Of a stretch of DNA of 64,000 bases, positions 3,585-55,486 are shown in pieces. The position numbers and the translations under genes were made by a program. The first letter of the stretch is position 1, and each line of letters starts with the position of its first letter. The notes beneath the pieces were generated by a model, which was not told the origin of the DNA, ran no database searches, and saw only the letters and a list, made by a program, of their open reading frames with translations. This DNA is from a virus, in the IMG/VR virus record IMGVR_UViG_3300041411_000085, positions 1-64,000 of that record; one strand, given 5' to 3'.

Positions 3585-5093
3585 CTATTGGTTAAAGGGG
3601 TTTGATCTGGTTAAATTTGCAGACATTAAACCGGAAGTAAAGTTAGGGATGTTAATAGATTGAGCAAGAATAGACACACAGTCCGCTAGGCTGTCGACGA
3701 CATCATCGTGGCCTGATTCTCCAGACTTTCGAAGTCCTGTAAAGGCCTCTAACTCACGATAAACGAAGTTCAAATCATTCTGAATTTTGTTTTCATGGTC
3801 AGTCCCGCAGTTCTTCAAGAAGATAACGTGACCATTCTGTGCTAATGAACTTACAGGGCGAAATCTATCAAGCTTGCTCTTCGTAGTAGATAGCGTACGA
3901 ACTCTAAAACCAGCCTCTGATATTTCCCTTGTAAGAATACCTGTAGAAGCTTTCGCAGCAGCACCCGGATCAAGAGGTAGAATAACATCTACATCATAAC
4001 CATCCGACCTTGCATTATTAAGGATAAACTCTTTCCAATCACCAAAACGAATACGAGTACGCTGCACATCATGTACAAAGTAACTGCCATTTTTGAGTTT
4101 TGATACTTTACAAGTTGCCGTGTAATCTGGCGAATTATTGGCATCAGATTTAAGCGTAGATGCTAGGTCATAACTACGAACGGTTTTTACAATCTCAGAT
4201 TTAGGTGGTTCTTCAATAGCTTCGGTACACCAGCTACGCAGAAAGTGTGTCGAGGACTGTTCGCGAGCGTTCCAGTCGCCCAAAAGCAAGCGTCTGCGTT
4301 CAATATCTGGCATAGCTTCGAGCGAAGACAAATATTCTGGTTGATTTTCCATGAGCCATGGATTATCGTAGATTGTACCAAGGATAACTTGGAAGCTTAG
4401 TGGGCGTACTTGTTTAGGATGGTCAATTGGTAGATTAGGATTACCATATTTAACAACCATCTCTTCTCTTGAGTCGCCCCAGAAGATCAAACCTTCACGG
4501 CGAAGAATCCAACGAACTCTGCCATTCTTTCCAGGGTCCGGCAGACCAGCATTAGGGTGCTCATCGTCGTACAGCCACCACTTAACCCAGTCATAAAGAA
4601 ATGAATCTGGGTCGGGGTTACAACTTAACCAAATAGATGGATCAAGTTTAGCCTTTGTACGAAGTCGAGAAATCAACCACCAAATATGTTTTTCATCTGC
4701 GTGCGTACATTCATCAAAAAACACATTTGAGAGTTCTAACCCATGGTATAACTGCCCAGCACTATCGTTTTCATAATGAGAGAACGATACGGAAGACCCC
4801 GAACTGAAGACAATTCGCTGATCTTTTAGTTTAATCTTAATATCATCTACTTGCGAGTATAGATGAACAGCAGCATCAAACAAACCGCCACTTTTCATAA
4901 TCGCAGTAGAGTTTTTACGAATGCAAAACCCCCGGTAAAGAGGGTCATTCATCCATCTCAAGTGTCTCATTAATCCAATGTGGCTCTTCGAAGAGCCGGC
5001 AGCCCCACCCGCTACCAAAATTCTTGAAGTAGAATTGAGGTATTGGGCTTGAAATTTTGACTGTGGGCCAATAATTACTTCTTCTTCACTCAT
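3585..5093 (-). CDS. terL: Terminase large subunit
   Basis: 502-residue packaging motor. The N-terminal ATPase has a Walker A-like GGAAGSSKS at 29-37 and Walker B VFFDE at 124-128. The C-terminal RNase H-like nuclease has acidic residues at SYDLAS (D309), LPLDPG (D375) and GHDDVVDSLAD (D463/D464), fitting the two-metal site that cuts concatemeric DNA. The ATG overlaps the TAA of the upstream HNH gene (TAATG). No residue loss is apparent and the length is normal for the family. Confidence 0.93.
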   Translation of the reverse strand: MSEEEVIIGPQSKFQAQYLNSTSRILVAGGAAGSSKSHIGLMRHLRWMNDPLYRGFCIRKNSTAIMKSGGLFDAAVHLYSQVDDIKIKLKDQRIVFSSGSSVSFSHYENDSAGQLYHGLELSNVFFDECTHADEKHIWWLISRLRTKAKLDPSIWLSCNPDPDSFLYDWVKWWLYDDEHPNAGLPDPGKNGRVRWILRREGLIFWGDSREEMVVKYGNPNLPIDHPKQVRPLSFQVILGTIYDNPWLMENQPEYLSSLEAMPDIERRRLLLGDWNAREQSSTHFLRSWCTEAIEEPPKSEIVKTVRSYDLASTLKSDANNSPDYTATCKVSKLKNGSYFVHDVQRTRIRFGDWKEFILNNARSDGYDVDVILPLDPGAAAKASTGILTREISEAGFRVRTLSTTKSKLDRFRPVSSLAQNGHVIFLKNCGTDHENKIQNDLNFVYRELEAFTGLRKSGESGHDDVVDSLADCVSILAQSINIPNFTSGLMSANLTRSNPFNQ

Positions 5094-5980
5094 TAAGTTC
5101 CCTCACTATGAAATTCCATCCACTCCTTATCGTAATGAGGAATCCAACCTTCATGAAACATCTCTACAAGCGTAGTAAAATGATATTTCTTATATTCTAA
5201 GTTTTCTACTTTTGAGCAAATTGTTGCAAAAGAATAATGTCCGGGTTTATTATTTTCAATCCAGATATTATAATAATTTGCAGCCATTGCCCATACTCTC
5301 GCTCTTTCTGGCCTAGACATACAACTCTTTTGCCAAGGTCGCAAGGATTTTTGATAAGCAGATGTTGCCTCTAATACGTGAGGAGGCATTACCTTACCTT
5401 TATTTGCCTTCGAAATATTCTGTTTGTGCTCTTCTGATATCGGCCTTCCACGAAAGAAATCACCGATCTTTTTACGAGCTTCTTCTGGAACAGTCCAACC
5501 GTCTGCAATAATTTGTTGACGCTTTTCACTAATTCTCTTAGAAGTTTCAGCGGATCGTTTTTGTCCTGTCTGCTTTAAACGACCTTTCTCAATAGACTCT
5601 TCAGAACGCTTGTGTCCAGTTAACGTTGCACTAATCTTATCTTTAGTTTCTTGAGTAATAGTACGCTCACTCATAAACTTTGCTTTTGCAATCTTAGCTT
5701 TTTCAACATCTGACCAAGTTAAAAGATCTTTGTGTGCATTAACAGTACGAGTGTAGGCCCACATCAGACTATAGTTATCTGGATAAGCTTTCCACAAAAG
5801 TTTGTGGGCAATAACATGCTCTTTTGCTGTGAAGAGGACATAATTATCGTTAGTATTTTTACCGCCTAGACACTTTGGGATAATATGGTGTTTTTCAAAA
5901 TACCCATCTAAAGCTTTCTTATCTAGACCTCTAACAATACACTTAGCAACTAACTCATCATAAACTTTAATATAATTCAA
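5093..5980 (-). CDS. HNH homing endonuclease with NUMOD3 repeats
   Basis: 295-residue homing endonuclease. The HNH core is at the N-terminus: EKHHIIPKCLGG (H31/H32), an Asn pair near 45, and EHVIAHK (H55, H59). Several NUMOD3-like segments follow (ISATLTGHKRSEESIEKG, ISKANKGKVMPPHV). The C-terminus reads MFHEGWIPHYDKEWMEF and matches the tail of the GIY-YIG enzyme two genes downstream. The start is TTG at 5980 with only a weak GAGAA site upstream, so the exact start is uncertain. It directly abuts terL. The 116-nt gap upstream contains a GGTG/CACC hairpin followed by TTTTA. Confidence 0.85.
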   Translation of the reverse strand: MNYIKVYDELVAKCIVRGLDKKALDGYFEKHHIIPKCLGGKNTNDNYVLFTAKEHVIAHKLLWKAYPDNYSLMWAYTRTVNAHKDLLTWSDVEKAKIAKAKFMSERTITQETKDKISATLTGHKRSEESIEKGRLKQTGQKRSAETSKRISEKRQQIIADGWTVPEEARKKIGDFFRGRPISEEHKQNISKANKGKVMPPHVLEATSAYQKSLRPWQKSCMSRPERARVWAMAANYYNIWIENNKPGHYSFATICSKVENLEYKKYHFTTLVEMFHEGWIPHYDKEWMEFHSEGT

Positions 5981-7509: not shown

Positions 7510-8898
7510 CTACAACCCTAAAGCAGCCGTATAAGCCGGGATAGCGTACCCAGCCAATGTTAGATAACCATTAGCCGTAGGGTGTGTATTATCCAGTGTC
7601 TCAAACCCTGTCCATGCAGTTGTGTCAATCCAAATAAGCTTAGGATTAGCTTTAGCATCCATCACAGCTTTCAGTGTGACATTTGCAGCATTAACCAGTT
7701 CTGGAGCACCAATGTTAGGCAGAATCCCACGACACAATACTTTGCCATATCCTTTAGCCAGCAGCTTATCAATACACAATCCATAATCAGTTTGTTCTGT
7801 GCTATCAATACCACCAGAGCCGCTATTACCACCTAATGCTAGGATTGCTACATCATTAGCTGTTACAGTCTTCATAGCTAAGGCAGCATCAATCATTACC
7901 TTACCACCACCTACTGTTTGCCCACTAACCCCATTCGTGCTACCAACAAATCCAAGGGCTGCTGCTACGTGCATTGTCTCAGTGTTTACTGAAGTAGCCC
8001 CCGGACCAGATCCGTAAGTGATGCTGTCACCAAACTGGTCAAGCTTTCTTCGGACACCAATATCAAGCAGTGTACTGTTACCACTTACAGCAAAATGTCC
8101 ACCAAGCTCTCTGAATGCACCACCATCCCACACATTGTATGTGGCTACAGAGCCATCACAAGGAATAACAATAGCCCGAGGAACACCATCAGCTTCAGGA
8201 GGGGCAGTATAGTAAGTGGGAATCCCACCATTCTTACTTACGCCAACTCTAGAGGATGTAGCTACAATCTTAGTGAATGCACCACGTATCTTGACAGAGC
8301 CTACGTTAGAACCACTGGTTACATTACTTGGTGCTTGTAGAGGCGGGGAATATCCTGAAACGTTCGGTGTGATCCCAGCAGAATACAAACCTGTAGCTGA
8401 ATCACTGCCTGCCTGAATCCAATTAGATGCTGCAACAAGTGCTGGAGGTTGACCTGTAACACTCAAGACATTTCCAGAGGATGCCACGTAAGGAGCATCA
8501 CCCATCTGCACAACCCACCTTACTTGAACAAAGTAGGTGGCGTGAGGAAGACCTGTGAAGAGTGTGTATACAGATGCAGAGTTAGGAGCACTGATGAAGT
8601 CACCACCGTCTACGCTCACTTGCATAGACCCAGCGTTATCTCCATAATCTGAAGGAGATGTAAGCAACGCTTGCGTCCCTGTAATCCATCCACACCATAA
8701 TGTCAAAGCACCGTATGCATATACTCTTGCAGCGTTCTTAGTTGTATTAAGAGAGCCTGCAAAGCCCGGAACAAACTGAGATGATGTGAAGGGTGCAGTG
8801 GTAGGGTCAGGAATTACGACGGAATGCTTTGGTTTTAAACTATGAAGAGGTCTTGAAATAGAACTGACAACTGAAGATGTAATATCATGAGTTATCAT
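7510..8898 (-). CDS. SGNH/GDSL-family esterase, likely virion-associated
   Basis: 462-residue protein whose C-terminal ~180 residues form an SGNH hydrolase: FGDSITYG (nucleophile S292), GGNSGSG for the block III Asn, and DNTHPTANGY giving the D436/H439 pair. The first ~280 residues are beta-rich with a fibronectin-like stretch (YFVQVRWVVQ). Phage SGNH domains commonly deacetylate capsule or O-antigen sugars from a tail fibre, so receptor modification is the likely role, although the substrate is unknown. The location between putative small and large terminase is unusual for a tail protein. Confidence 0.8.
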   Translation of the reverse strand: MITHDITSSVVSSISRPLHSLKPKHSVVIPDPTTAPFTSSQFVPGFAGSLNTTKNAARVYAYGALTLWCGWITGTQALLTSPSDYGDNAGSMQVSVDGGDFISAPNSASVYTLFTGLPHATYFVQVRWVVQMGDAPYVASSGNVLSVTGQPPALVAASNWIQAGSDSATGLYSAGITPNVSGYSPPLQAPSNVTSGSNVGSVKIRGAFTKIVATSSRVGVSKNGGIPTYYTAPPEADGVPRAIVIPCDGSVATYNVWDGGAFRELGGHFAVSGNSTLLDIGVRRKLDQFGDSITYGSGPGATSVNTETMHVAAALGFVGSTNGVSGQTVGGGKVMIDAALAMKTVTANDVAILALGGNSGSGGIDSTEQTDYGLCIDKLLAKGYGKVLCRGILPNIGAPELVNAANVTLKAVMDAKANPKLIWIDTTAWTGFETLDNTHPTANGYLTLAGYAIPAYTAALGL

Positions 8899-15982: not shown

Positions 15983-16714
15983 ATGAAAGCTATTGATTTA
16001 ACGGGGAAGAAATATAATAGACTTCTTGTAGAAAGTTTCGCGGGTTCTCGTAAGACCGAAGGTGCTGGTCAATCTATACGAACTTGGAATTGTTTGTGTG
16101 ACTGCGGTAATAGGATTGTTGTAGATGGTCATGCCTTGAAGTGTGACAATACGATGAGTTGTGGATGTTATAAACTTGAAGTCACAACAACACATGGTAT
16201 GTGGAAGGATCGATTCTATCAAATATGGGGAGATATGAAAGTTCGCTGTGATTGTGAAACTAATCAGTCTTACTACAGATATGGAGGTCGGGGTATTAGC
16301 TATCAAGAATCTTGGGTATCGTTTGAAGCTTTTAAAGAAGACATGTATTCCAGTTATGAAGATCACCTAACTCTAGAGAGGATTGACGTAAACGGTAATT
16401 ACTCCAAAGAAAATTGCTGCTGGGCCACTAAAGCCGAACAAGCAAGGAATAGAGGTATGGATGCACGTAATAAAACAGGAGTAACTGGTATTAGAACTTG
16501 GATTGATAAAGATACTCAGGTTCTATATTATGTAGCAGAGGCTCAAGGGTTAGATGGTAAAAGGGTGACTAAACACTTTTCAACTGTAAAGTATGGCGAA
16601 GAAGGGGCCTTTAATTTGGCAGTCGCTAAACGAAAAGAGTTTATGAATGTACTAAGTGAAAATGGAATTGAGTACGGCATTAATCACGGTATCCAAAAAG
16701 AGGAATTTGTATGA
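15983..16714 (+). CDS. HNH-type homing endonuclease with AP2 domain
   Basis: 243 residues. The start LTGKKYNRLLV...LCDCGN and the SCGCYKLE zinc-type segment are typical of phage HNH/AP2 endonucleases. The core has YQIWGDMKVRC and LTLERIDVNGNYSKENCCWAT (HNH-like His replaced by other residues in places), followed by an AP2 DNA-binding domain (TGVTGIRTWI to KEFMNV). Good site TAAGGAG. Sits between phoH and a ClpP-like gene, whose ATG overlaps its stop. Confidence 0.8.
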   Translation: MKAIDLTGKKYNRLLVESFAGSRKTEGAGQSIRTWNCLCDCGNRIVVDGHALKCDNTMSCGCYKLEVTTTHGMWKDRFYQIWGDMKVRCDCETNQSYYRYGGRGISYQESWVSFEAFKEDMYSSYEDHLTLERIDVNGNYSKENCCWATKAEQARNRGMDARNKTGVTGIRTWIDKDTQVLYYVAEAQGLDGKRVTKHFSTVKYGEEGAFNLAVAKRKEFMNVLSENGIEYGINHGIQKEEFV

Positions 16715-18802: not shown

Positions 18803-19308
18803 CCAAAGAAGATGATCTTTACATGGATATTGCTATTCGTGCAGCACAAGATAGTTACGCACTTAGAAAAAAGGTAGGCTCGTGTATTCTAACAAAGAGT
18901 CGTGGTTTATACCTAGGAAGAAATGGTACACTTCCCGGAATGGATAATACCTGTGAAGATAGGATTTATGCAAACCACTCGTGGGACTATATTGGGTTTG
19001 ATGAATTCAAAGAAAGATACCCATATGAAGATGATGGACACTATAAGCTGAAAACCAGAGAGGGTGTAATTCACAGCGAAATCAACTCTCTATGCAAGAT
19101 GGCTCGTGAGGGTGTTAGTGCAGAAGGGGCTACAATCTACGTCACCTTGTCCCCATGTGCAACTTGTAGTTCAATTATTGCTTCCAGTGGGATTAAAAAG
19201 GTTGTATACTTAGAACGTTATCGGGATACCAAGGGCATTGAGATGCTAGAGGCCTTTGGTGTTGAAGTTGTACAACATAAGAAAGGAGAGGGTGGTGGAG
19301 ATAGGTGA
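18799..19308 (+). CDS. dCMP deaminase-like zinc enzyme
   Basis: 169 residues. The cytidine/deoxycytidylate deaminase signature is present: HSEINSL (H and catalytic E) and SPCATC for the two zinc cysteines. Converts dCMP to dUMP, the ThyX substrate, and therefore supplies thymidylate together with the thyX gene at 62.5 kb. The insert between residues 50 and 85 is longer than in minimal deaminases. The end overlaps an endonuclease gene. Confidence 0.9.
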   Translation: MTKEDDLYMDIAIRAAQDSYALRKKVGSCILTKSRGLYLGRNGTLPGMDNTCEDRIYANHSWDYIGFDEFKERYPYEDDGHYKLKTREGVIHSEINSLCKMAREGVSAEGATIYVTLSPCATCSSIIASSGIKKVVYLERYRDTKGIEMLEAFGVEVVQHKKGEGGGDR

Positions 19309-19918
19309 TACATTTGGTAGGCTTAAGATTGTAGAGTTTCTACCTAAAAGTAAAGTTTTGGTTGAGTGCTTGTGTGGGAACAGTAAAATAGTTCGTAAAG
19401 GTCACCTAAAAGATGGTAATACAAATAGTTGTGGCTGCTTGCAAAAAGAATTACAAAGCGCTAAAATGAAAACTCATGGTATGGAAGGAACCCCTACATA
19501 CAAGAGTTGGAACAATATGATGATGCGTTGCACTAACCCCAAACGAATTAATTACGAAGAATATGGTGGCAGTGGCGTTACTATCTCAGATTCTTGGTAT
19601 CTGTTTGAGAATTTCTTTGAAGATATGGGTGTTCGCCCTGAAGGCATGACACTTAATAGGGTTGGTGGTGCTAAGATTTACTCTAAAGAGACTTGTGAGT
19701 GGGCTACGCTCTCTGAACAATCTTATGATCAAAAGAAAAGGTCTACAAATACTTCCGGTAAAACGGGGGTTAGCTTTCAAGAAGCTACAGGTAAATGGAA
19801 GGTAGAGATCACTAAAGAGAGGCGAAACTACTTCATTGGCTATTTTACAGATTTTGAAAAAGCATGTACCGCTCGTGAGGCAGCAGAAATTGAACATTAT
19901 GGGAGGAATCTAGATTGA
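19295..19918 (+). CDS. HNH-type homing endonuclease with AP2 domain
   Basis: 207 residues from the GTG at 19295, chosen because AAAGGAGAG lies at proper spacing; an upstream TTG would be buried in the deaminase gene. Same architecture as the gene at 15983: GDTFGRLKIVEFL, LCGNSK and SCGCLQKE, KSWNNMMMRCTNPK, then an AP2 domain (SGKTGVSFQEATGKW). Inserted between deaminase and ligase, another pair of core nucleotide genes. Confidence 0.8.
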   Translation: MEIGDTFGRLKIVEFLPKSKVLVECLCGNSKIVRKGHLKDGNTNSCGCLQKELQSAKMKTHGMEGTPTYKSWNNMMMRCTNPKRINYEEYGGSGVTISDSWYLFENFFEDMGVRPEGMTLNRVGGAKIYSKETCEWATLSEQSYDQKKRSTNTSGKTGVSFQEATGKWKVEITKERRNYFIGYFTDFEKACTAREAAEIEHYGRNLD

Positions 19919-20973
19919 ATAAAATTACACTGTTTGGACTGAATAAGAATTCAGGGTTGAAAGTCTGGTCGATTTGGACCGAAGATGAAAATCTTTACAT
20001 TGAACATGGACAACTCAACGGAAAACTTCAATTAAAATCGGAAGTGGTTGCAGGAAAGAACATTGGTCGCTCTAATGAGACGACTCCTGCGCAACAGGCT
20101 GAATTAGAAGCAAAGAGTCGTGTGAACAAACAGATTGACAAGGGATACCGAGAGAATTCCGACGATCTTAAGGAGCTAGACCTCCTCCCAATGCTGGCAA
20201 ATGACTATTTGAAACAAGGTCATCGTATTAAATACCCTTGCTATGCAAGTGCCAAACTTGATGGTGTTCGTTGCCTTGCAATCAGCACAGAAGAGGGCAT
20301 GATTCTTAAGTCTCGTGGTGGGAAACTCTACGATGTAAAACACATTACGTCTGAGCTTCAAACTATTATGCAGATCGGACAAGTGTGGGACGGTGAGCTG
20401 TACATTCACGGTAAGTATCTTGAAGAGATTGTTTCTGCTGTTAAGAAACCAAATGATAATACAAAAGATATTCACTTTATCATCTTTGACTTCGTTACTG
20501 AAGATACTTTTGTCAATCGAATGAAAGAGGCTCAGAAATTTAAACTTGGAATAAACAGTTCAATTGAAATTCTAGGCTATCAGACGCTATTCTGCGAAGA
20601 AGATATGAAGTCTCTGCACAAACAGTATGTATCTATTGGTTATGAAGGTATCATGCTACGTAACTACAGCGGTCTGTATGAATCAGGTAAGCGTTCGGCT
20701 GATTTGCAAAAGTATAAGGAATTTCTTGATGAAGAGTTTGAAATTGTTGCTGTGCTAGAAGATAAGAACCATAATGCTGTATTTGAGGTTTACGATTCTA
20801 CAGCTAAAGATCATTTTACTGTAACTTATGGTGATTTTGAGCAACGTAAGCACCAACTAATGTATCCTAATCAGTACATCGGCAAGAAGCTCACTGTAAA
20901 ATTCCAAACCCGGTATAAGGACAGCAAGCTACCACAATTCCCAACTGGCCTAATTATCCGCGATTATGAATAA
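19915..20973 (+). CDS. ATP-dependent DNA ligase with WGR-like N-terminus
   Basis: 352 residues. The nucleotidyltransferase motif I is SAKLDGVRC with adenylated K114; motif III-like FDFVTEDTF, motif IV YEGIMLRNY and motif V LQKYKEFLDEEFEI follow, with an OB-fold C-terminus (KKLTVKFQTRYKD). The first ~80 residues look like a WGR domain (VWSIWTEDENLYIEHGQL). Seals nicks during replication. The TTG start has GGAGG upstream. Confidence 0.9.
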   Translation: MNKITLFGLNKNSGLKVWSIWTEDENLYIEHGQLNGKLQLKSEVVAGKNIGRSNETTPAQQAELEAKSRVNKQIDKGYRENSDDLKELDLLPMLANDYLKQGHRIKYPCYASAKLDGVRCLAISTEEGMILKSRGGKLYDVKHITSELQTIMQIGQVWDGELYIHGKYLEEIVSAVKKPNDNTKDIHFIIFDFVTEDTFVNRMKEAQKFKLGINSSIEILGYQTLFCEEDMKSLHKQYVSIGYEGIMLRNYSGLYESGKRSADLQKYKEFLDEEFEIVAVLEDKNHNAVFEVYDSTAKDHFTVTYGDFEQRKHQLMYPNQYIGKKLTVKFQTRYKDSKLPQFPTGLIIRDYE

Positions 20974-20983
20974 GGGGAAGAAA

Positions 20984-21412
20984 ATGCGAACTAATGAATC
21001 AGAATGGTTGCCAGAAGATATTATTGACACACGACAACTCCAAATCTACGCACTCAAGCAGATGATGTCTGCACTGGGTTATGATTTGATGAAAAGTAGT
21101 GTTGAAGGTAATTGGCACTTCCACAGTAATCAATACTCAAATAAAGGTCGTGAAAAGATTAGCGTGCGTACCGCTGTAAAGTTGTACAATGGGGATACGG
21201 CAAAGTGTGTATTTGGTCGTCCTCCACATTACCTTACGATCTGGGCATTCGATGATTTCTCCATCGCTAAAGCAAAGGCATCACGAATTCTCCGTTCAAT
21301 CAAACTCCAGTATTGCCGCCAAACAAAAGTTATTATATGCCAAGACCATCGAGTCCAGTTTATCACGCCTAGCTACGCAAAGTTGTTCCTCAACAATAAG
21401 TATTTGGGCTAA
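20984..21412 (+). CDS. Hypothetical protein, 142 aa
   Basis: ATG at 20984 after AAGGGGAAG. Mixed alpha/beta; contains TIWAFDDFSIAKAKASRILRSI, a possible basic DNA-contacting helix. It follows the ligase gene closely. Not recognised. Confidence 0.75.
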   Translation: MRTNESEWLPEDIIDTRQLQIYALKQMMSALGYDLMKSSVEGNWHFHSNQYSNKGREKISVRTAVKLYNGDTAKCVFGRPPHYLTIWAFDDFSIAKAKASRILRSIKLQYCRQTKVIICQDHRVQFITPSYAKLFLNNKYLG

Positions 21413-21415
21413 CTC

Positions 21416-21607
21416 ATGAACAGATCAATTATCTACGTCTGGTCATCAGGATTCTGGATTTATGGTGTAGATTATCACCACGGTACACATTCTGCTTTAG
21501 GTAAGTATCAAGAAGTTATTATTGGTGAAGGCTGGCATAGACAAGAGGTTACTTTGATGGTGAACGACTTCATTGAAGAGAATCTATTGTTGTGGGAAGA
21601 TCAATAG
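21416..21607 (+). CDS. Hypothetical protein, 63 aa
   Basis: Aromatic-rich (YVWSSGFWIYGVDYHHG), then helical. Last gene before a strong terminator. Function unknown. Confidence 0.65.
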   Translation: MNRSIIYVWSSGFWIYGVDYHHGTHSALGKYQEVIIGEGWHRQEVTLMVNDFIEENLLLWEDQ

Positions 21608-21616
21608 AAATTTATA

Positions 21617-21657
21617 AGGCTCTTAGGCATTGTGCTTGAGGGTCTTTTGTTTTATTA
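21617..21657 (+). terminator. Rho-independent terminator
   Basis: A 13-bp stem with G-T wobbles (AGGCTCTTAGGCA paired with TGCTTGAGGGTCT, loop TTG) followed by TTTGTTTTATTA. It splits the early block into two parts. Confidence 0.75.
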
Positions 21658-21688
21658 TAGCTTTACAAATTAACTAGGAGGGTTCCTC

Positions 21689-21934
21689 ATGGAATTGAAC
21701 AACAAAAGTAGGGAGTTTCTTACCAAGCTGTCTGCATTGCTTGAAGAGTATAAAGTAACTGTAGAGGTCACAGAGTCATGTCATGGCTATGGTGGTTTCT
21801 CTGTGGATGGGATTGAATTCACCATTCCTTATCACAATGAAGAGTTTGATTACAAGTCTGAACAGTTTGTAGAACTATCTGGCAGATATCTTGAATCCAA
21901 AGATATTAATGAAATTCTGGCGGTGTATCTGTGA
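21689..21934 (+). CDS. Hypothetical protein, 81 aa
   Basis: ATG preceded by AGGAGGG. A helix (SREFLTKLSALLEEYKV) then strands with GYGGFSVDGIEF; reminiscent of small phage proteins with an alpha-beta-beta layout. No family assigned. Overlaps the next start. Confidence 0.7.
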   Translation: MELNNKSREFLTKLSALLEEYKVTVEVTESCHGYGGFSVDGIEFTIPYHNEEFDYKSEQFVELSGRYLESKDINEILAVYL

Positions 21935-22464
21935 TGAATATTGTAGAAAAGGCTTACTACTTCGCAATGGCTGGCCACGCTGCTGTAGGCCAGAAAAGAA
22001 AGTACACAGGAGACAACTACATTGTCCACCCTGTTGAGGTTTGTGATATCATTGAACAAGCAGCTTATGTAAATGACAGTATGCGATGTGCTGCCCTTAT
22101 GCATGATTTATGTGAAGATACACAAATTACGATTGATCTGATTATAAAGGAATTTGGATATTGTATTGCCATGTTGGTTGAAGGTCTTACAGATGTCTCT
22201 AAACCAGAAGACGGTAATAGGGCTGTTCGTAAAGAAATTGATCGTCAACATACAGCAATGCAATCACCAGCAGCCAAAACAATCAAACTTGCAGATCTTA
22301 TCTCAAACAGTAAATCGATTCTTGAACACGACAAAGATTTTGCAAAGGTTTATATCAAAGAGAAAGAATTGTTGCTAGAAGTGCTGACCGAGGGTGATCC
22401 TACTCTGTATGCACAGGCTAAGGGTGTTGTAGAGAAGGCTAAGAAGGAGTTGGGAATTGAATAA
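21934..22464 (+). CDS. SpoT/MESH1-like HD-domain hydrolase
   Basis: 176 residues from ATG 21934 (a GTG 3 nt upstream is an alternative). The (p)ppGpp-hydrolase HD signature is nearly complete: HPVEV (32-36), LMHDLCEDT (H57-D58, E61-D62) and KLADLISN (K118, D121, N125). The length is that of a stand-alone small alarmone hydrolase; there is no synthetase, TGS or ACT domain. It may degrade ppGpp and relieve the stringent response during infection; other nucleotide substrates are possible. Confidence 0.8.
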   Translation: MNIVEKAYYFAMAGHAAVGQKRKYTGDNYIVHPVEVCDIIEQAAYVNDSMRCAALMHDLCEDTQITIDLIIKEFGYCIAMLVEGLTDVSKPEDGNRAVRKEIDRQHTAMQSPAAKTIKLADLISNSKSILEHDKDFAKVYIKEKELLLEVLTEGDPTLYAQAKGVVEKAKKELGIE

Positions 22465-22654
22465 AGAACAACTAGAAAAGAATCTTACACTGTTACTTAA
22501 AGATCTGTCCAGTGCAAACAAACGTTGCAAGAAGATTTCCAAAGCGTGTGGTCTAGAAGATAATCATCTTATTGAATTTGCAATGGAACAGACTAAACAA
22601 GTCCTAAACTATATCGAATCTTTAAAGGATTCTAAGGAAACACCAACCCCATGA
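22457..22654 (+). CDS. Hypothetical helical protein, 65 aa
   Basis: TTG start with AAGGAG at 7 nt. Lys-rich helices (LEKNLTLLLKDLSSANKRCK). Overlaps the HD hydrolase end by 8 nt. Unknown function. Confidence 0.65.
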   Translation: MNKEQLEKNLTLLLKDLSSANKRCKKISKACGLEDNHLIEFAMEQTKQVLNYIESLKDSKETPTP

Positions 22655-22665
22655 GGTGACACAAC

Positions 22666-22950
22666 ATGAAAACTTCCATAATCAGTATTCTTTCCTTTAC
22701 ACTGATCTTGACAGGCTGTACACTAGACCCAGTAAAGCAGTCCAACAGTGTTATCGTGGGTCCGGGAACATTCTATGCTAAATGGCAGAAGCAAGTGATG
22801 GATGCTTGTTCTGATAAAGCAGCAGAAATTGTTCTAAAACTTACTGCTGATAAATACAGGGAAGGAATTCTTTTAACGGAAGAGCAGATTGTTATGATTC
22901 ATGGGATGTTGGTTAGGAAGTGTTCTATGAATAGTGGGTTGGTAATTTAA
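22666..22950 (+). CDS. Small lipoprotein
   Basis: 94 residues with a lipoprotein signal: hydrophobic stretch then LTGC at 16-19, so the mature chain would begin with a lipid-modified Cys and be membrane anchored. Mature part is helical with two further Cys that could pair. Phage lipoproteins can block superinfection or act as spanins; neither is shown here. Confidence 0.75.
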   Translation: MKTSIISILSFTLILTGCTLDPVKQSNSVIVGPGTFYAKWQKQVMDACSDKAAEIVLKLTADKYREGILLTEEQIVMIHGMLVRKCSMNSGLVI

Positions 22951-22962
22951 GAGGTGGTAAAA

Positions 22963-23133
22963 ATGAATCAAGAAGAATATGCAACGCTAGATAGGATTAG
23001 AACACATTTCATTGATGCTCTACAGGAGCTAGAATGTCTAGGAAGGCTTCCAAGGATTAGGCAGAATCTTGAATTTGATCTGCATGAGTTGGAAGTTTAT
23101 ATTGAAATGATGAGGGAGATGAATAATGGGTAA
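22963..23133 (+). CDS. Hypothetical helical protein, 56 aa
   Basis: ATG after GAGGTGG. Almost entirely helical (RTHFIDALQELECLGRL). Stop overlaps the following ATG by 8 nt. No family. Confidence 0.6.
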   Translation: MNQEEYATLDRIRTHFIDALQELECLGRLPRIRQNLEFDLHELEVYIEMMREMNNG

Positions 23134-23512
23134 TCCATCGTTTACACCAATGAGTCAAGAACAACGAGAGGAAGTACGACTTAAGCGAATTGCAGACCAA
23201 GAATGGGCTAAAGATAATTTAAAAGATGATTTCGCCGATGAGCCTGTGTGGAGAGCACTTGGCTCAGAATATTCTGTGCGATTTCCACAAAGGCATGTTC
23301 CGGGAACTGAACTTAAGTATCTGAAGCGTACATGTAAAAAGCTCGGACTAGAAATCAGCGCATTTCTTGAATCAACTGGATTCTCAACTCTTAAGCAGTT
23401 TGCAGAAGCTAATAAAACATACCCAAGTTGGGCTTTTGTGGGGTTGATTTTAGAGTTTTACAATGACCATCAAATGAATCAGTACGAGTATCCTCTCAAA
23501 ATCGATTCATAA
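23126..23512 (+). CDS. Hypothetical protein, 128 aa
   Basis: Polar N-terminus (SQEQREEVRLKRIADQEW) and a C-terminal helical domain with KYLKRTCKKLGLEISAFLES, possibly a helix-turn-helix. ATG overlaps the previous gene. Ends ahead of a promoter region. Confidence 0.7.
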   Translation: MGNPSFTPMSQEQREEVRLKRIADQEWAKDNLKDDFADEPVWRALGSEYSVRFPQRHVPGTELKYLKRTCKKLGLEISAFLESTGFSTLKQFAEANKTYPSWAFVGLILEFYNDHQMNQYEYPLKIDS

Positions 23513-23565
23513 GGCACTTTCACCGAGGATTTTCACTAAAAATAGCTGCGTTCGGTAGATAAAGC

Positions 23566-23594
23566 TTGCATAGTATGTCTGAGGTTTCTAGACT
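23566..23594 (+). promoter_or_regulatory. Internal promoter of the early block
   Basis: TTGCAT (23566-23571), 17-nt spacer, TAGACT (23589-23594), in the 116-nt gap before the metallopeptidase-like gene. The AAAGCTTGCATA context also occurs at 15067-15078 before phoH, where no good -10 follows. Confidence 0.55.
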
Positions 23595-23640
23595 CTATTT
23601 CAGGGTATAAAACTCCCTACAAACATTTATGGAGAATATT

Positions 23641-24096
23641 ATGATTAAAAGAATTTTAGCCCTCAGATATGTGTGCAAGAAATATAACCTCAAATGCAAG
23701 CTCATATTCTTTGGTAGCGAAGGCTGGATGAGTAGGAAAGACAGGCTTATTTGTGTAAGCCTGTTCCAAAAGAACTTCTTCCAAGTGTTGTACCATGAAA
23801 TTGGTCATGAGGTGGCTACAAGGTCTTTGAAATTTGATAACAAATATGCAAAAGCAGCTTTTGGCTCTAGATTGAAATTCAATTACGAAGATGATATGTT
23901 TGTAAGACTAGAGGAAGAAGCCAAGGCTAGTAAGTTTTCAATGAGGTTTCTGAAAGTCAAAGATAGGCAATACCTTAAAGAATGTTGGTACACATACACA
24001 AGTTCTGTTGCTAAATGTATAAATGCAAGTGAGCTTGACAGGTACATTACAACCGTTGCAAAATACAGTAAATATTTTGAGGGGAACACAAAATGA
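23641..24096 (+). CDS. HExxH metallopeptidase-like protein
   Basis: 151 residues. LYHEIGHEVATRS supplies the HExxH zinc motif, with candidate third-ligand acids in the helix VRLEEEAKAS about 35 residues later. Length and layout recall small ImmA-like or minimal gluzincin proteases, but substrate is unknown. ATG 23641 is preferred over 23629 because GGAG is correctly placed. An anti-repressor or host-protein-degrading role is speculative. Confidence 0.65.
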   Translation: MIKRILALRYVCKKYNLKCKLIFFGSEGWMSRKDRLICVSLFQKNFFQVLYHEIGHEVATRSLKFDNKYAKAAFGSRLKFNYEDDMFVRLEEEAKASKFSMRFLKVKDRQYLKECWYTYTSSVAKCINASELDRYITTVAKYSKYFEGNTK

Positions 24097-24272
24097 CTTT
24101 GTTTGTCGTATATCTTATCGTTTCACTTATATTCGTCTACATCAATGCCACAGCCTGTTACATTAGAGGAATAAAATATCCTTGGAGACAAGATATTCCC
24201 CTGTGCCTTATCTGGCCTGTGACAGCACCAATCGGTATCTTAGCTATTATTGCTTCGGAGAGTCGTCCATGA
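24093..24272 (+). CDS. Membrane protein, 59 aa
   Basis: Two hydrophobic helices (FVVYLIVSLIFVYI and IPLCLIWPVTAPIGILAII) separated by a basic loop. ATG overlaps the upstream stop. Unknown role at the inner membrane. Confidence 0.65.
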   Translation: MTLFVVYLIVSLIFVYINATACYIRGIKYPWRQDIPLCLIWPVTAPIGILAIIASESRP

Positions 24273-24317
24273 CTCAACACAAAGATACATAAAGTGAAAC
24301 TTACTGGAGAGTAAACA

Positions 24318-24500
24318 ATGACCAAACAATATTCCCATGACAGAGAAGTGATCAAAGACTTCATTCGCTGGGCTAGCGATGAGCATAAATGTGCTGTCGT
24401 GTGTTTTCCAGATGAATTCGCAGCTAGTGCTTACGTTAATTATAAGTTCATCAACGTTTCAGAAATATTGGAAGAGTTTATTGAGGGGAGAGGACAATGA
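24318..24500 (+). CDS. Hypothetical protein, 60 aa
   Basis: ATG after ACTGGAGAG. Alternating helix-strand protein (KDFIRWASDEHKCAVVCF) ending acidic. Overlaps the next gene by 4 nt. Confidence 0.65.
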   Translation: MTKQYSHDREVIKDFIRWASDEHKCAVVCFPDEFAASAYVNYKFINVSEILEEFIEGRGQ

Positions 24501-24811
24501 TTAAGTGGATTAAGGGTTTGTTTTCTTTTCAAACAGAGCAAGGGGGTTGGGAGCCTTGGTTTGAAGCCCTTGAGAAAGAAAAGGTACAAACAGATATTCA
24601 CGGCCTGCCGTTTGTAAAGAATATCGTTCCTATGCCTAAAGTGAAACCAACAAAGAAGAGTGAATATAATACATTTGAGAATTGCAGGGCTTACAGTTCC
24701 GGTACAACCGTAGAAGGTCTAAAGCTAGCACTCTCACACTGTACAAAGTATGAAGACAGGATGTTCTTGCAATTTCTTATCAATGTACACTTGAGAAATA
24801 TGGGGAAATAA
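24497..24811 (+). CDS. Hypothetical protein, 104 aa
   Basis: Trp-rich N-terminus (WIKGLFSFQTEQGGWEPW), basic middle and a C-terminal helix. Shares one base with the start of the phaZ gene, so expression of the two is coupled. No family recognised. Confidence 0.7.
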   Translation: MIKWIKGLFSFQTEQGGWEPWFEALEKEKVQTDIHGLPFVKNIVPMPKVKPTKKSEYNTFENCRAYSSGTTVEGLKLALSHCTKYEDRMFLQFLINVHLRNMGK

Positions 24812-25647
24812 TGAGCATTCAAATGCAAAACCAAACAATCATGTTGAGGAACCAATCAATCAGGGTGTCAATTAAGCCGGGAGCACCAAACAGTGTTCCT
24901 CTTCTGCTTTGTACGGGCATAGGGGCTTCTCTCGAATTGCTATTTCCTTTTGTTGAGGCTATTCACATTGCACAACCAGACTTAGAAATCATTACATTTG
25001 ATTATCCGGGAGTGGGTGGTAGTTCAACACATCTGTTACCTTATCGTTTTAGTGGCCTGTGTAGAACAATCTCAGAAATGTTGGACTTCTTAAACTACGG
25101 GCAAGTATTTGTATTGGGGTTATCATGGGGCGGATTCACCAGTCAGGAATTTGCTTACCAATATCCAAATCGTTGTAAGAAACTAATCCTAGCAGCCACT
25201 TGTGCTGGTGTTACAGCCATTCCTCCAAGTATGAAAGTGCTTAGTTTGATGTCCTCACCTAAACGCTATACAGATCCTGACTATGCAGCTTCGATTGCAG
25301 CAGATATCTATGGAGGCCACTTTAGGGGAAATAAAGAACTGGCTATTGAACATGCTTCGCGTATGTCACAAAGCAAAGGTGAGTTTAAACATAGTCAGTT
25401 GGGTTATGCCTATCAGCAAGGTGCCTTGATGTGGTGGTCATCATTGTGGTATCTGCACAGTATTAAACAACCAACACTAGTCCTTGCAGGTGATGACGAT
25501 CCTCTGATAGACTTGCGGAATATGAAAATATTAGCGAAGCTAATCCCTAATTCTGAGATGCATGTATTTGAGGGCGAAGGTCATCTCTTCCTTCTTACGA
25601 GTTTGGATGAGGTTGTTCCAATTGTTACTAAGTTTTTGGAGGGCTAA
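24811..25647 (+). CDS. phaZ: PhaZ-type intracellular polyhydroxyalkanoate depolymerase
   Basis: 278-residue alpha/beta hydrolase. Stretches such as LLLCTGIGASLELLFPFVEA, DYPGVGGSST, RCKKLILAAT, SPKRY, IYGGHFRG and LVLAGDDDPLID match the medium-chain PHA depolymerase of Pseudomonas as I recall it, and length agrees. The triad is S105 in GLSWGGF, an Asp at 228-230 in AGDDDP, and H258 in EGHLF. The enzyme hydrolyses storage polyester in granules to 3-hydroxyacids. Flanking genes are phage early genes with overlaps on both sides, so it is stably integrated in the operon. It is an auxiliary metabolic gene candidate; a generic esterase is the alternative. Confidence 0.85.
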   Translation: MSIQMQNQTIMLRNQSIRVSIKPGAPNSVPLLLCTGIGASLELLFPFVEAIHIAQPDLEIITFDYPGVGGSSTHLLPYRFSGLCRTISEMLDFLNYGQVFVLGLSWGGFTSQEFAYQYPNRCKKLILAATCAGVTAIPPSMKVLSLMSSPKRYTDPDYAASIAADIYGGHFRGNKELAIEHASRMSQSKGEFKHSQLGYAYQQGALMWWSSLWYLHSIKQPTLVLAGDDDPLIDLRNMKILAKLIPNSEMHVFEGEGHLFLLTSLDEVVPIVTKFLEG

Positions 25648-26034
25648 ATGTTAATTGAATATGCTAGAATACTCTCACCCCCAATGTGCAGAAGATATCC
25701 AGATAAGATATACGTCTACGGTGACAACATGAAAGCCTTCGGTAAAGGTGGACAAGCTATCATCCGTGATGAGCCTAATGCTTTTGGTATTCCAACTAAA
25801 CGATATCCCTCTTGGGATGATTGGGCATTCTTTAGTGACCAACCAGATGAAATTGAAGCTGTAAAGATATCCCTACGTGAATTGTGGAAGGTTGCACGAA
25901 ACAAAGTGATTGTATTCCCTGAAGATGGGATCGGTACAGGGAGAGCTAAGATGAAAGAGAAATCTCCTGTTGCTTATAAGATGATGTGTGATATATTGCG
26001 GGAACATTTTGGTATTGTTAATGGAGGAAAATAA
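25648..26034 (+). CDS. Conserved phage/bacterial protein of unknown function
   Basis: 128 residues. Contains YVYGDNMKAFGKGGQAIIRD, DEPNAFGIPTKRYP and VIVFPEDGIGTGRAKM, a pattern I recall from a conserved domain of unknown function found in phages and bacteria; the Gly-rich loops and conserved Asp/Asn suggest binding of a nucleotide-like ligand, perhaps macrodomain-like. Begins right after the phaZ stop. Confidence 0.7.
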   Translation: MLIEYARILSPPMCRRYPDKIYVYGDNMKAFGKGGQAIIRDEPNAFGIPTKRYPSWDDWAFFSDQPDEIEAVKISLRELWKVARNKVIVFPEDGIGTGRAKMKEKSPVAYKMMCDILREHFGIVNGGK

Positions 26035-26288
26035 TGACAAACCTTGAACGCTGCTCATGTGGAGCTAGGGAGAAAAATAAGTGTAGTAAGGAGAGTGCTC
26101 CAATGAATGGAGTCCAAAGTGGGAAGATGTGTTTGAAGGATGAAGATACCCTGTTCGTTAACTTTAGAGACACCTTGAATGGTGGTTTCTGTGCTGATAT
26201 TGACTATGAATCACAAGCTTGGCAGAAAGTGCTGGGTGATTGGGAAGGGTTTAAAATTGAGGAGCAGCTATGTATTACCAAGAAGTAG
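26034..26288 (+). CDS. Cys-containing hypothetical protein, 84 aa
   Basis: N-terminal CSCGAREKNKC cluster could bind zinc; the rest is acidic with DTLNGGFCADIDYES. ATG shares a base with the previous stop. Unknown role. Confidence 0.65.
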   Translation: MTNLERCSCGAREKNKCSKESAPMNGVQSGKMCLKDEDTLFVNFRDTLNGGFCADIDYESQAWQKVLGDWEGFKIEEQLCITKK

Positions 26289-26563
26289 GCTACAAACTAC
26301 CACCAGAATACACAAGCCTTATCTACCTGCACCAGCGTCTAGGTGATATCGATACTGTGGATGCCGCTTGTTATATCTGGAATAGGTTGCACACAGGCGA
26401 CACTCTTCGTATTAATAAAGTTGAAGAAATGCTAGGCACAATTCATCTGACAGGGAAGTGTAGTGACACGGAGGCTGCTTTGAACATTTGCAGATACCTC
26501 ACGACTATCTGTGTTGGTGTTACGTACCAGAAGACAATTATCACTGAGAGTTGGGAGATTTGA
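26270..26563 (+). CDS. Hypothetical protein, 97 aa
   Basis: ATG at 26270 after GAGGAGC, overlapping the previous gene by 19 nt. Helical, with three Cys in the second half. Not recognised. Confidence 0.65.
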   Translation: MYYQEVGYKLPPEYTSLIYLHQRLGDIDTVDAACYIWNRLHTGDTLRINKVEEMLGTIHLTGKCSDTEAALNICRYLTTICVGVTYQKTIITESWEI

Positions 26564-26808
26564 TGAAATATAAAATGGGTAATAAAGTCTACATCGCTTC
26601 CTCTAAGAAGACAGATGGGACACATAACAGAGGTAAGATCGTAGGTATTGAGCTTTCTTACTTTGGACTTGGGTATCTTACAGAAACTCAGTATTTTAAT
26701 GACTTTGATCATCCAAGATATAAAGTTGCCTATGTTGATTGCTTCACAAATAAAGCTAACTGTCATTGGTACTCGGAGGAAGAGCTTCAGAAGGAGAAAC
26801 CTGAATGA
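26563..26808 (+). CDS. Hypothetical protein, 81 aa
   Basis: ATG at 26563 in a TGATG junction with GGGAG upstream. Begins MKYKMGNKVYIASSKK, resembling small SH3-like barrels of phage proteins that start with GxKVxI. Ends EEELQKEKPE. Confidence 0.65.
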   Translation: MKYKMGNKVYIASSKKTDGTHNRGKIVGIELSYFGLGYLTETQYFNDFDHPRYKVAYVDCFTNKANCHWYSEEELQKEKPE

Positions 26809-26969
26809 ACCAAACAATTGAAGAACGCATGCAGAATATTGATAATGAACTGAAAGCACTTAGGGAAGAACTAAAAGTAGAACTTTTACCTAAATATCTT
26901 TCACCAGAACATCAAAAGAGAGTGTTAAAAGCGTTTATGAAAGGTATTGATGACAAGGAAGAAGAGTAA
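26805..26969 (+). CDS. Coiled-coil protein, 54 aa
   Basis: A single long charged helix (RMQNIDNELKALREELKVEL) predicted to dimerise, with overlaps at both ends and AAGGAG upstream. Function unknown. Confidence 0.65.
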   Translation: MNQTIEERMQNIDNELKALREELKVELLPKYLSPEHQKRVLKAFMKGIDDKEEE

Positions 26970-27466
26970 TGACTGAACTCCTCACACACGATAACCTGTG
27001 TCTGTTAGCTGAGAAGTTCTTAACTAAGAATGCATTTGGTGTTGTATTCCATGATAAGTTTAAAGCTTATACAAACACAGGTGAACAACCAGACTGTCTT
27101 GGATTCAGAAGTGGAGTATCTTGTCTGATTGAGTGTAAAACATCTAGGTCTGATTTCTTAGTAGACAAGCGTAAGAAGTTTAGAGTTGATCCGGCACTTG
27201 GTATGGGTGATTGGAGATTCTTTCTAACACCTACAGGACTTATTAAAGCTGAGGAGCTTCCTGCTGGATGGGGATTGTTAGAGACTGATGGGAAACGGAT
27301 TAAGAAAGTATACGGATTCCCTGCAAACACAGGGTGGTTTGATAAACCATTCACCGGTAATAAACAAGCTGAGTGTGATTATATGTATTCTGCCTGTAGG
27401 CGTATGGTCATACGAGGACACTTGAAAGAGATTTATGATGGTGTTCCTGTAAAGGAGTTTGTATAA
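26969..27466 (+). CDS. PD-(D/E)XK nuclease-like protein
   Basis: 165 residues. PDCLGFRSGVSCLIECKTSR gives the PD...ExK core (D about 39, E about 52, K about 54), followed by DKRKKFR, a pattern seen in single-domain DNA repair or restriction-type nucleases. A C-terminal Cys/Arg-rich segment (YSACRRMVIRG) may bind DNA. Could degrade host DNA or process recombination intermediates; specificity unknown. Confidence 0.7.
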   Translation: MTELLTHDNLCLLAEKFLTKNAFGVVFHDKFKAYTNTGEQPDCLGFRSGVSCLIECKTSRSDFLVDKRKKFRVDPALGMGDWRFFLTPTGLIKAEELPAGWGLLETDGKRIKKVYGFPANTGWFDKPFTGNKQAECDYMYSACRRMVIRGHLKEIYDGVPVKEFV

Positions 27467-27642
27467 TGAAACCACTAATCCTTAAAACACCAGAAGGACT
27501 GTATGTCTGTGAAATACCTATTGAGAGTGAACCAGAAGACGGAGCATCTGATAGAGAATGGTGGATATGGGCAGCAACTGGGGGGACAAGTCCTGTAGAG
27601 GCTTATAATAATTGGCTGAAGGATTGGGAGGAGAGGGTGTGA
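27466..27642 (+). CDS. Hypothetical protein, 58 aa
   Basis: AAGGAG upstream. Contains REWWIWAATGGTSPVEAYNN, a pattern of small phage proteins ending in a helix. Linked by overlaps to both neighbours. Confidence 0.6.
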   Translation: MKPLILKTPEGLYVCEIPIESEPEDGASDREWWIWAATGGTSPVEAYNNWLKDWEERV

Positions 27643-27869
27643 TGTCTGATTTCAAAAGTTGGTACGAAGTAGCTGAATATCTTCTATCAAACAAGTGGAA
27701 CTCTATAGACGTAGACAGTACATGGTCATTCACTGAGGACAAGAGCTGGAGTAAGGTGTATCCTCCTGAAAATGCTAGTGACTATGAGCATTATAAGAAT
27801 ATTGGTGATGCAATAGAAGAGATGATGTATTTCTGTGATGGTGACTTAGGGAGTGTTAGTAAAGAATGA
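27642..27869 (+). CDS. Hypothetical acidic protein, 75 aa
   Basis: ATG at 27642 after GGAGGAGAG. Trp/Tyr-rich acidic helices (KSWYEVAEYLLSNKW). Ends in an ATGA overlap. No family. Confidence 0.65.
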   Translation: MSDFKSWYEVAEYLLSNKWNSIDVDSTWSFTEDKSWSKVYPPENASDYEHYKNIGDAIEEMMYFCDGDLGSVSKE

Positions 27870-28042
27870 AAAGTGGAGACGTATATCTTCCAGAATCAGA
27901 TGAGTATCTAGAATCAATCGAAGAAGAATATGATTGGTATTGCTGGGAGGAAGAGGATTGGTCCGAGAATAGATGTTTCTATGAGAATGATTTAGAGCAT
28001 TTGGAAGAATTACCGAGTAAGGAGAAGATACATGCTAACTAA
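27866..28042 (+). CDS. Very acidic 58-aa protein
   Basis: 20 of 58 residues are Asp or Glu, only 4 Lys or Arg; aromatic residues are interspersed (EYDWYCWEEEDW). Overlaps the next gene by 11 nt. A DNA-mimic inhibitor is one possibility. Confidence 0.6.
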   Translation: MKSGDVYLPESDEYLESIEEEYDWYCWEEEDWSENRCFYENDLEHLEELPSKEKIHAN

Positions 28043-28645: not shown

Positions 28646-29752
28646 ATGGAAGAAGAGTGGAAAGAGATACCCGGTTATCCGGGGTATGAAGCTAGCGATA
28701 AAGGTAATGTAAGACAGTTATCTGGTAAACAAGTGTTCCTCCAGATAACAGGTGAGCCTGAATACCACTATGTAAACATTGTAGATGAGTATGGTAACAG
28801 AGTCCTAAGACGTGCTCATGTCATGGTTGCGAAAGCCTTTCTTGAGAATCCATTGAACCTACCAATGGTTGACCATATTGACAGACAGAGGTTTAATAAC
28901 AACCTTGAAAATCTCCGGTGGGTAACTCGTAAAGATAATGCTAGAAATAAAGTTAATACACTCTTTACTGAATATCAAGGAAAACAAAGGGTCTTGGTTG
29001 AGCTTGTAGAGGAAATATTTGAAGATGATTATCTTGCACCATACCAAGCAATCAGGTACAGAGTATCAACTGGTATGGATTTTGATGCTGCCTTGGCATC
29101 TTATCTGTACCTTCTAGAGCACGGAAGGTGTAAGATTAAAGTGGACTGGAATAACGAAGAAGTATTCCTCACAGTTCTTTGTAAGGACTTGAGTAAAGAT
29201 TTCTTTTATGTGAGACAGAGACTTAGAGATGGTTGGTCTATTTGGAATGCTATTTACGATATTCCACACTCCCACAGTTACAGCTTCGAGGTTATTGACT
29301 CAAAAGGTGTTGGCCACTGGTATCAGAATAATGAAATGTTTGAAAAGACACACCCAACTGCAATTGGAATCTGGAAGTCCTTGTTTAGAGAAGGTAAGAC
29401 ATTAGATGAAATATTAGCATATGATGGTAAAGACTATTTAAGACGAACTGTAGGTAAGCACACAGGAACTTTAAAAGAGCTGTGTAAGCTTTATGGGAAG
29501 ACAGAATCCTCAGTAGAAACTAGAGTAGGCAAAGGCATGTCTTTAGAGGATGCTTTAACCTCCCCTCCTGAAAGGATCAAGAAAGTCACTATTGATGGTG
29601 TATCAGGGAGCCCTAAATATTGGTATGAGCATTACGGGCTTGTTTACAAGACTGTGAAACATAAGAAAGATAGGTTGAAGTGTTCCTTTGAGGATATCTT
29701 GAGATACTTTGATGTAGATTTAACTGGTAAAGTTATTTCGTACACAGACTAA
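28646..29752 (+). CDS. HNH homing endonuclease with NUMOD4 and repeated DNA-binding modules
   Basis: 368 residues. NUMOD4 start (EEEWKEIPGYPGYEASDKG), HNH core MVDHIDRQRFNNNLENLRWV (residues about 72-92), then several repeats of a short helix-turn unit, e.g. RQRLRDGWSIWNAI, VETRVGKGMSLEDAL and KKDRLKCSFEDIL, probably laid along a long DNA target. ATG after TAGGAG. Last gene of the block, directly before a terminator. Confidence 0.88.
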   Translation: MEEEWKEIPGYPGYEASDKGNVRQLSGKQVFLQITGEPEYHYVNIVDEYGNRVLRRAHVMVAKAFLENPLNLPMVDHIDRQRFNNNLENLRWVTRKDNARNKVNTLFTEYQGKQRVLVELVEEIFEDDYLAPYQAIRYRVSTGMDFDAALASYLYLLEHGRCKIKVDWNNEEVFLTVLCKDLSKDFFYVRQRLRDGWSIWNAIYDIPHSHSYSFEVIDSKGVGHWYQNNEMFEKTHPTAIGIWKSLFREGKTLDEILAYDGKDYLRRTVGKHTGTLKELCKLYGKTESSVETRVGKGMSLEDALTSPPERIKKVTIDGVSGSPKYWYEHYGLVYKTVKHKKDRLKCSFEDILRYFDVDLTGKVISYTD

Positions 29753-55451: not shown

Positions 55452-55471
55452 GCTCAAGGATGAGCCATTTT
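55452..55471 (+). terminator. Weak terminator after the SSB gene
   Basis: GGCTCA-AGGA-TGAGCC 6-bp stem then ATTTTC, 10 nt after the SSB stop. An ATG at 55460 lies in the hairpin and is not used as a start. Confidence 0.5.
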
Positions 55472-55486
55472 CAAACGAGAGTGTTA

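Follow-up and report, generated by a model that had tools for sequence, protein, structure and literature searches.

Can a gene embedded among small phage genes encode a genuine poly(3-hydroxyalkanoate) (PHA) depolymerase, and what would such an enzyme do for the virus? The question is raised by phaZ, an open reading frame (ORF) in the 64,000-base stretch of viral DNA analysed here (positions 1 to 64,000 of IMG/VR record IMGVR_UViG_3300041411_000085; hereafter the window). The initial annotation, made from sequence alone, had described a full-length PhaZ-like enzyme in an operon of tiny phage genes, joined by 1-nt junctions on both sides, and had pointed to a Pseudomonas host. The enzyme, the operon and the host all held, and the junctions held in part. 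The ORF begins with ATG, ends with TAA and comprises 278 codons without internal stops (Table 1); it overlaps the preceding gene by 1 nt (TAATG at 24809-24813), but abuts the following gene without overlap (TAA/ATG at 25647/25648). The complete viral record spans 87,003 bases and also encodes a terminase, portal, tail sheath, baseplate, tape measure and ribonucleotide reductase, with ThyX and dCMP deaminase likewise among its ORFs. Terminase kinship, alongside the similarity of the depolymerase to Pseudomonas PhaZ, supports Pseudomonas as the inferred host genus. No integrase was seen on the record, the annotation of which is incomplete, and a lytic lifestyle is inferred with this reservation. 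As 23 kb of the window gave no megablast match among phage isolates, no near relative appears to have been isolated.

Table 1. Coordinates and characteristics of phaZ and associated features in the window.
Feature	Position	Strand	Remarks
Terminase large subunit	3585..5093	-	84% identity to Pseudomonas phage vB_PsaM_M1; host-genus evidence
Polycistronic cluster of small phage genes housing phaZ	20966..28042	+	DUF7390, HD_4 protein, phrog_21723, phrog_631, others
60-aa ORF, function unknown	24318..24500	+	Conserved upstream partner of phaZ; 67-90% identity in 8/9 related phaZ loci
104-aa ORF, function unknown	24497..24811	+	Between 60-aa ORF and phaZ; 1-nt overlap with phaZ (TAATG)
phaZ, TIGR02240-type intracellular (mcl-)PHA depolymerase, 278 aa	24811..25647	+	ORF, profile match, alignment, model
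Lid of PhaZ	about residues 136-201 of window PhaZ		6-aa insertion; counterpart is KT residues 133-192
DUF7831 / phrog_2072 protein	25648..26034	+	Begins on the base that follows the phaZ stop codon
84-aa ORF, next in operon	26034..26288	+	Conserved downstream in most relatives

The family of the phaZ product could be determined by profile comparison. NCBIfam TIGR02240, the equivalog model for poly(3-hydroxyalkanoate) depolymerase (curated cut-off 250.6 bits), covers residues 8-277 with a score of 323.6 bits (E 1e-96), the runner-up family reaching 84.6 bits. When calibrated on three Pseudomonas genomes, the true PhaZ scored 619-632 bits and all other alpha/beta hydrolases less than 90 bits, a gap which rules out a generic esterase. 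A short-chain PhaZ or PcaD is likewise ruled out, with scores far under the respective cut-offs. All ten further phage copies that were checked exceed the TIGR02240 cut-off (291-403 bits). Outside Pseudomonas such proteins are rare, and only 2/369 genomes drawn from the same class encode a PhaZ above the cut-off, one of these being the reference itself. The chromosomal kin of the window protein are Pseudomonas genes, the nearest sharing 52-55% identity with it; a scan of genome contigs returned no matches with a single-protein query and recovered the chromosomal homologues with an alignment query. By descent and model score the ORF product is thus a genuine TIGR02240-type intracellular mcl-PHA depolymerase, while its hydrolysis of mcl-PHA is inferred.

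The catalytic triad supports this placement. S105 and H258 had been reported as intact, which held, and the acid, given as Asp228-230, is narrowed to D230; nucleophile, acid and base align with S102/D221/H248, the catalytic triad of Pseudomonas putida KT2440 PhaZ (PMC12504323). The triad and its lipase box (G-x-S-W-G-G) are invariant in all compared phage and bacterial rows, save one truncated contig, and G36-I37-G38, several lid residues and Q202 are invariant among the phage and Pseudomonas copies. An AlphaFold2 model based on 40 sequences (pLDDT 91.7; pTM 0.92) has helices in the lid region. Foldseek ranks esterases and lipases first, followed by the Bacillus thuringiensis PHB depolymerase (E 7.5e-19), and no solved structure closer than these esterases and lipases was found by sequence or fold. 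The assignment was to be considered refuted if general esterases were the best matches and PhaZ-specific residues were absent, which is not the case by sequence score and triad, with the exception of one substitution.

This substitution, overlooked by the initial annotation, is a Thr at residue 35, where Asn is essential in P. putida PhaZ. N35T falls in the oxyanion/lid-contact loop, which reads CTGIG instead of FNGIG, and mutation of Asn-35 abolished the activity of the P. putida enzyme (PMC12504323). The Asn is a residue needed in that enzyme and not a published criterion of the family, but the window copy fails it. N35T is confined to the window and two other phage loci (L002 and L138), with Asn found in 91/91 bacterial and 37/39 other phage copies; A111S and D256E are fixed in the same three, at positions more than 95% conserved elsewhere. 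Furthermore, a 6-residue lid insertion is common to the M1-like clade, with a similar one in L111 and L113, the C-terminal tail of about 17 residues has been lost, as is common among phage copies, and the lid is more diverged from P. putida PhaZ (43% identity) than the core (58%). Given N35T, the lid insertion and the lost tail, the substrate or rate of the window sub-clade may have shifted, a possibility inferred from the sequences. The N35T copies are not decaying, because their dN/dS is 0.116, and loss of activity is less likely than an active site that has been altered or compensated, although no assay data are available. Considering N35T, full mcl-PHA activity is not claimed for the window copy.

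The genomic position of phaZ is that of a phage gene. In the M1-like group, nine viral contigs that were assembled independently show it in the same place with the same small genes as neighbours, typically after the 60-aa ORF and before either the DUF7831 gene or the ORF at 26034. A homologue of the 60-aa ORF lies immediately before phaZ, with a 1-nt overlap, in L004, L006 and L021; the 104-aa ORF is missing from the equivalent place in relatives and is therefore probably a local insertion. With the window included, four phages (the others being L002, L021 and L022) have the DUF7831 gene immediately 3' of phaZ. On the phiPMW-like contigs L131 and L141 this gene is present away from phaZ, and its mobility and proximity to phaZ suggest that the two share a cassette. 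The criterion of the Pseudomonas pha operon, a location between PHA synthase genes, is not met, the neighbours of phaZ being small phage genes. A search with a positive control found no phasin gene alongside phaZ in 25 phage records, which speaks against a wider PHA cassette in these records; given the lack of an accompanying phasin, the phages are likely to have taken the hydrolase alone.

The phaZ cluster also includes a 177-aa HD_4 (RelA/SpoT-type HD) protein (21931-22464, +), which resembles Mesh1-type small ppGpp hydrolases by sequence and is kept in L002, L003, L006 and L020 at 67-94%; it is possibly a phage alarmone hydrolase, an inference resting on sequence alone. Elsewhere in the window, homing endonuclease-like ORFs of HNH and GIY-YIG type are found at 1304-2083, 5093-5980, 15983-16714, 19256-19918, 28646-29752, 52621-53280 and 55460-56062, several of which adjoin core genes such as the terminase and portal. 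That at 28646-29752 was confirmed as NUMOD4/HNH, the remainder being judged by eye. Near the structural genes, a 462-aa protein (7510-8898, -) incorporates a C-terminal GDSL/SGNH hydrolase domain and has no PHROG match; it is tentatively inferred to be a tail-associated deacetylase acting on surface polysaccharide. A C5 cytosine DNA methyltransferase (PF00145; 32136-33101, -) could conceivably shield the phage DNA.

The distribution of phaZ among phages is wider than the initial annotation saw. Searches of IMG/VR recovered five loci with a single protein, eight with six relatives and 39 with a phage-plus-plasmid alignment query, so that 39 contigs (5 to 307 kb) besides the window encode PhaZ, some of the short ones (5-15 kb) being viral by IMG/VR classification alone. 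A terminase was detected in 25/40 phaZ records, including the window. Those of L131, L132 (307 kb) and L117 share 78, 66 and 73% identity, respectively, with the terminases of phiPMW of P. putida, PhiPA3 and phage KLEP17-4 of P. cuatrocienegasensis. By terminase kinship, phaZ is thus present in at least four phage lineages, mostly Pseudomonas phages: M1-like and phiPMW-like myoviruses, PhiPA3-like jumbo phages and KLEP17-4-like phages. The neighbours of phaZ include phage structural and DNA polymerase families in L111 (284 kb) and a subunit of a phage RNA polymerase in L140 (280 kb). True PhaZ is absent from 50,697 phage records, which yielded only generic hydrolases at about 26% identity. The genome of vB_PsaM_M1 (OP714164), the closest isolate by terminase and partly alike in its neighbourhood, is without phaZ, as are eleven records of at least 71 kb sharing the helicase-primase (72-95% identity). 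The absence from these eleven long relatives indicates that phaZ is dispensable and accessory, although the completeness of the relatives' records is uncertified and a few absences may reflect missing ends.

A PhaZ phylogeny including bacterial sequences, as had been proposed, was constructed from 71 sequences. The window, L002 and L138 group together (98/92) within a ten-member M1-like clade (100/98), whose neighbour in the tree is chromosomal Pseudomonas PhaZ; a clade of their own is made up by L133-L137, and L140 falls with Cupriavidus and Caballeronia. The AU test rejects the hypothesis that all phage copies share one origin (p = 9e-5), and phages have thus acquired phaZ more than once. 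For the core phage set a single origin is weakly rejected (AU p 0.036), with a P. silesiensis megaplasmid copy nested inside. This copy, on the 1.17-Mb plasmid pPL1 (L023:3489-4382), falls within the phage PhaZ clade, lies outside a pha operon and has an NYN-like ORF and an ATP-grasp R2K gene as neighbours. Transfer may have taken place from phage to plasmid or in reverse, and it is possible that at least one phage phaZ copy has returned to a bacterial replicon. Among related phage copies dN/dS ranges from 0.03 to 0.15 (0.116 for the window against L002), and the frames at 39/39 other phage loci are without internal stops, one being cut by a contig end. These ratios and open frames show that phaZ is maintained by purifying selection in phages, as an accessory gene. 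The GC content of phaZ tracks the flanking phage background (0.41-0.63); contamination or chimera is ruled out by synteny, GC and open frames.

The criterion for an auxiliary metabolic gene (AMG), a host-derived metabolic gene within phage genes on a viral contig, is met on the basis of the structural genes, synteny and Pseudomonas kin. The preferred reading, with a probability of about 0.7, is that phaZ is a phage-borne AMG encoding a functional Pseudomonas-family PhaZ, which mobilises host PHA in lytic infection; expression, mcl-PHA hydrolysis and benefit are inferred. The phage operon would be transcribed during lytic infection of a Pseudomonas cell containing mcl-PHA granules, and PhaZ would work at the granule surface, under its lid, where S105-D230-H258 would cut the polyester into (R)-3-hydroxyalkanoic acids, to be converted by acyl-CoA synthetase and beta-oxidation of the host to acetyl-CoA, NADH and FADH2. 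These products may supply phage nucleotide and protein synthesis, the genome encoding ribonucleotide reductase, ThyX and dCMP deaminase. The mobilisation of host polyester during infection, as originally proposed, remains inference, and N35T leaves the full mcl-PHA activity of this copy open. Further points against are the diverged lid with its 6-aa insertion, the lack of a phasin, the dispensability of the gene and the absence of activity, expression or infection data. A bolder reading, towards which the balance tips only slightly, holds that Pseudomonas phages have converged on PHA mobilisation as a means of taking over the host: M1/phiPMW myoviruses, jumbo phages and small phages would each have captured phaZ independently and modified it (lid insertion, tail loss, N35T), and PHA content would help to determine phage yield in nature.

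Three other explanations can be weighed against the preferred reading. The enzyme of the window sub-clade may have come to act on a different ester (a short ester, a lipid, an acyl-lactone or oligomeric PHA), with a benefit other than granule mobilisation. The fixation of N35T, A111S and D256E in the window, L002 and L138 speaks for this, as does the lid-hinge S184F substitution, by which P. putida PhaZ acquires activity on p-nitrophenyl esters at the expense of that on PHA (PMC12504323), and the nearest solved structures are general esterases and lipases. However, the score of the window protein exceeds the equivalog threshold for PhaZ and is well separated from those for other families. The copies do not vary in the triad, the G36-I37-G38 loop or many of the lid residues, and other phage lineages retain N35, so that PhaZ chemistry should be the common reason why phages carry the gene. 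A shifted substrate is thus considered unlikely.

Less likely still is that PhaZ is active on granules for a physical or regulatory gain, such as more room in the cytoplasm, the release of proteins bound to the granules, or easier lysis. In its favour, phaZ is carried alone, without a phasin, and is also carried by jumbo phages such as PhiPA3-like L132, for which cell volume is a requirement, but direct evidence is lacking. In Pseudomonas, PhaZ is best known for mobilising carbon. That phaZ is a bacterial gene which entered the contig by recent capture or mis-assembly and does nothing for the phage could be argued from its homologues being chromosomal Pseudomonas genes, but identity to even the nearest of these is low, the same place and neighbours recur in the nine contigs, GC is phage-like, dN/dS is about 0.1 and the gene is found on 39 other contigs. 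Conserved synteny and purifying selection effectively refute this explanation, which can be all but excluded.

If the preferred reading is correct, its implications extend beyond this locus. Auxiliary genes that serve photosynthesis or the metabolism of nucleotides, sulphur and nitrogen are familiar from phages. Breaking down a carbon storage polymer of the host follows a different principle, with the phage drawing on a stockpile and not on redirected flux. That unrelated phages have captured the gene repeatedly implies that it is of real benefit, and cells rich in PHA are predicted to be better hosts, or different ones; the occurrence in at least four lineages suggests that phages have repeatedly turned to the carbon reserves of their hosts, with the enzyme activity an inference. 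This would matter for carbon flow in settings with PHA-storing Pseudomonas and for phage-afflicted industrial PHA production. The phage enzymes also represent naturally diverged variants, in loop, lid and tail, of an enzyme whose activity has so far been destroyed by engineered changes to the lid. The initial view that this is not an established phage theme held in the literature searched and in the 50,697 phage records. No phage-encoded PHA depolymerase was found in the open-licence literature searched, although other literature or AMG tables may contain a prior mention. Within the limits of these searches, this is the first PHA depolymerase described for phages: the enzyme family is known, while the phage location and repeated capture are new.

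Among known systems, the short-chain intracellular PHA depolymerase i-nPhaZ (NF050089) is likewise a lidded alpha/beta hydrolase, acting on intracellular PHB, but belongs to a different family (55 bits against a cut-off of 300 bits). The lidded alpha/beta hydrolase PhaZ of Bacillus thuringiensis (8ynv, 8ynw) is also of another family, with about 20% identity to the window protein, while phrog_789 'esterase/lipase' shares the alpha/beta hydrolase fold but is a weak match (95 bits), generic and not PhaZ-specific. P. putida KT2440 PhaZ (TIGR02240) shares full-length homology (about 55%), the triad and the lid architecture. The window copy differs in being phage-encoded, of low GC and not located between phaC1 and phaC2, and in its N35T, 6-aa lid insertion and missing C-terminal tail of about 17 residues. 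Phage phaC, phbB, fadJ and other PHA-synthesis AMGs have been reported in PHA-producing mixed cultures (PMC12013262), in a study which does not mention the term "depolymerase"; these genes also touch host PHA metabolism, but in the opposite direction, that of synthesis as opposed to mobilisation.
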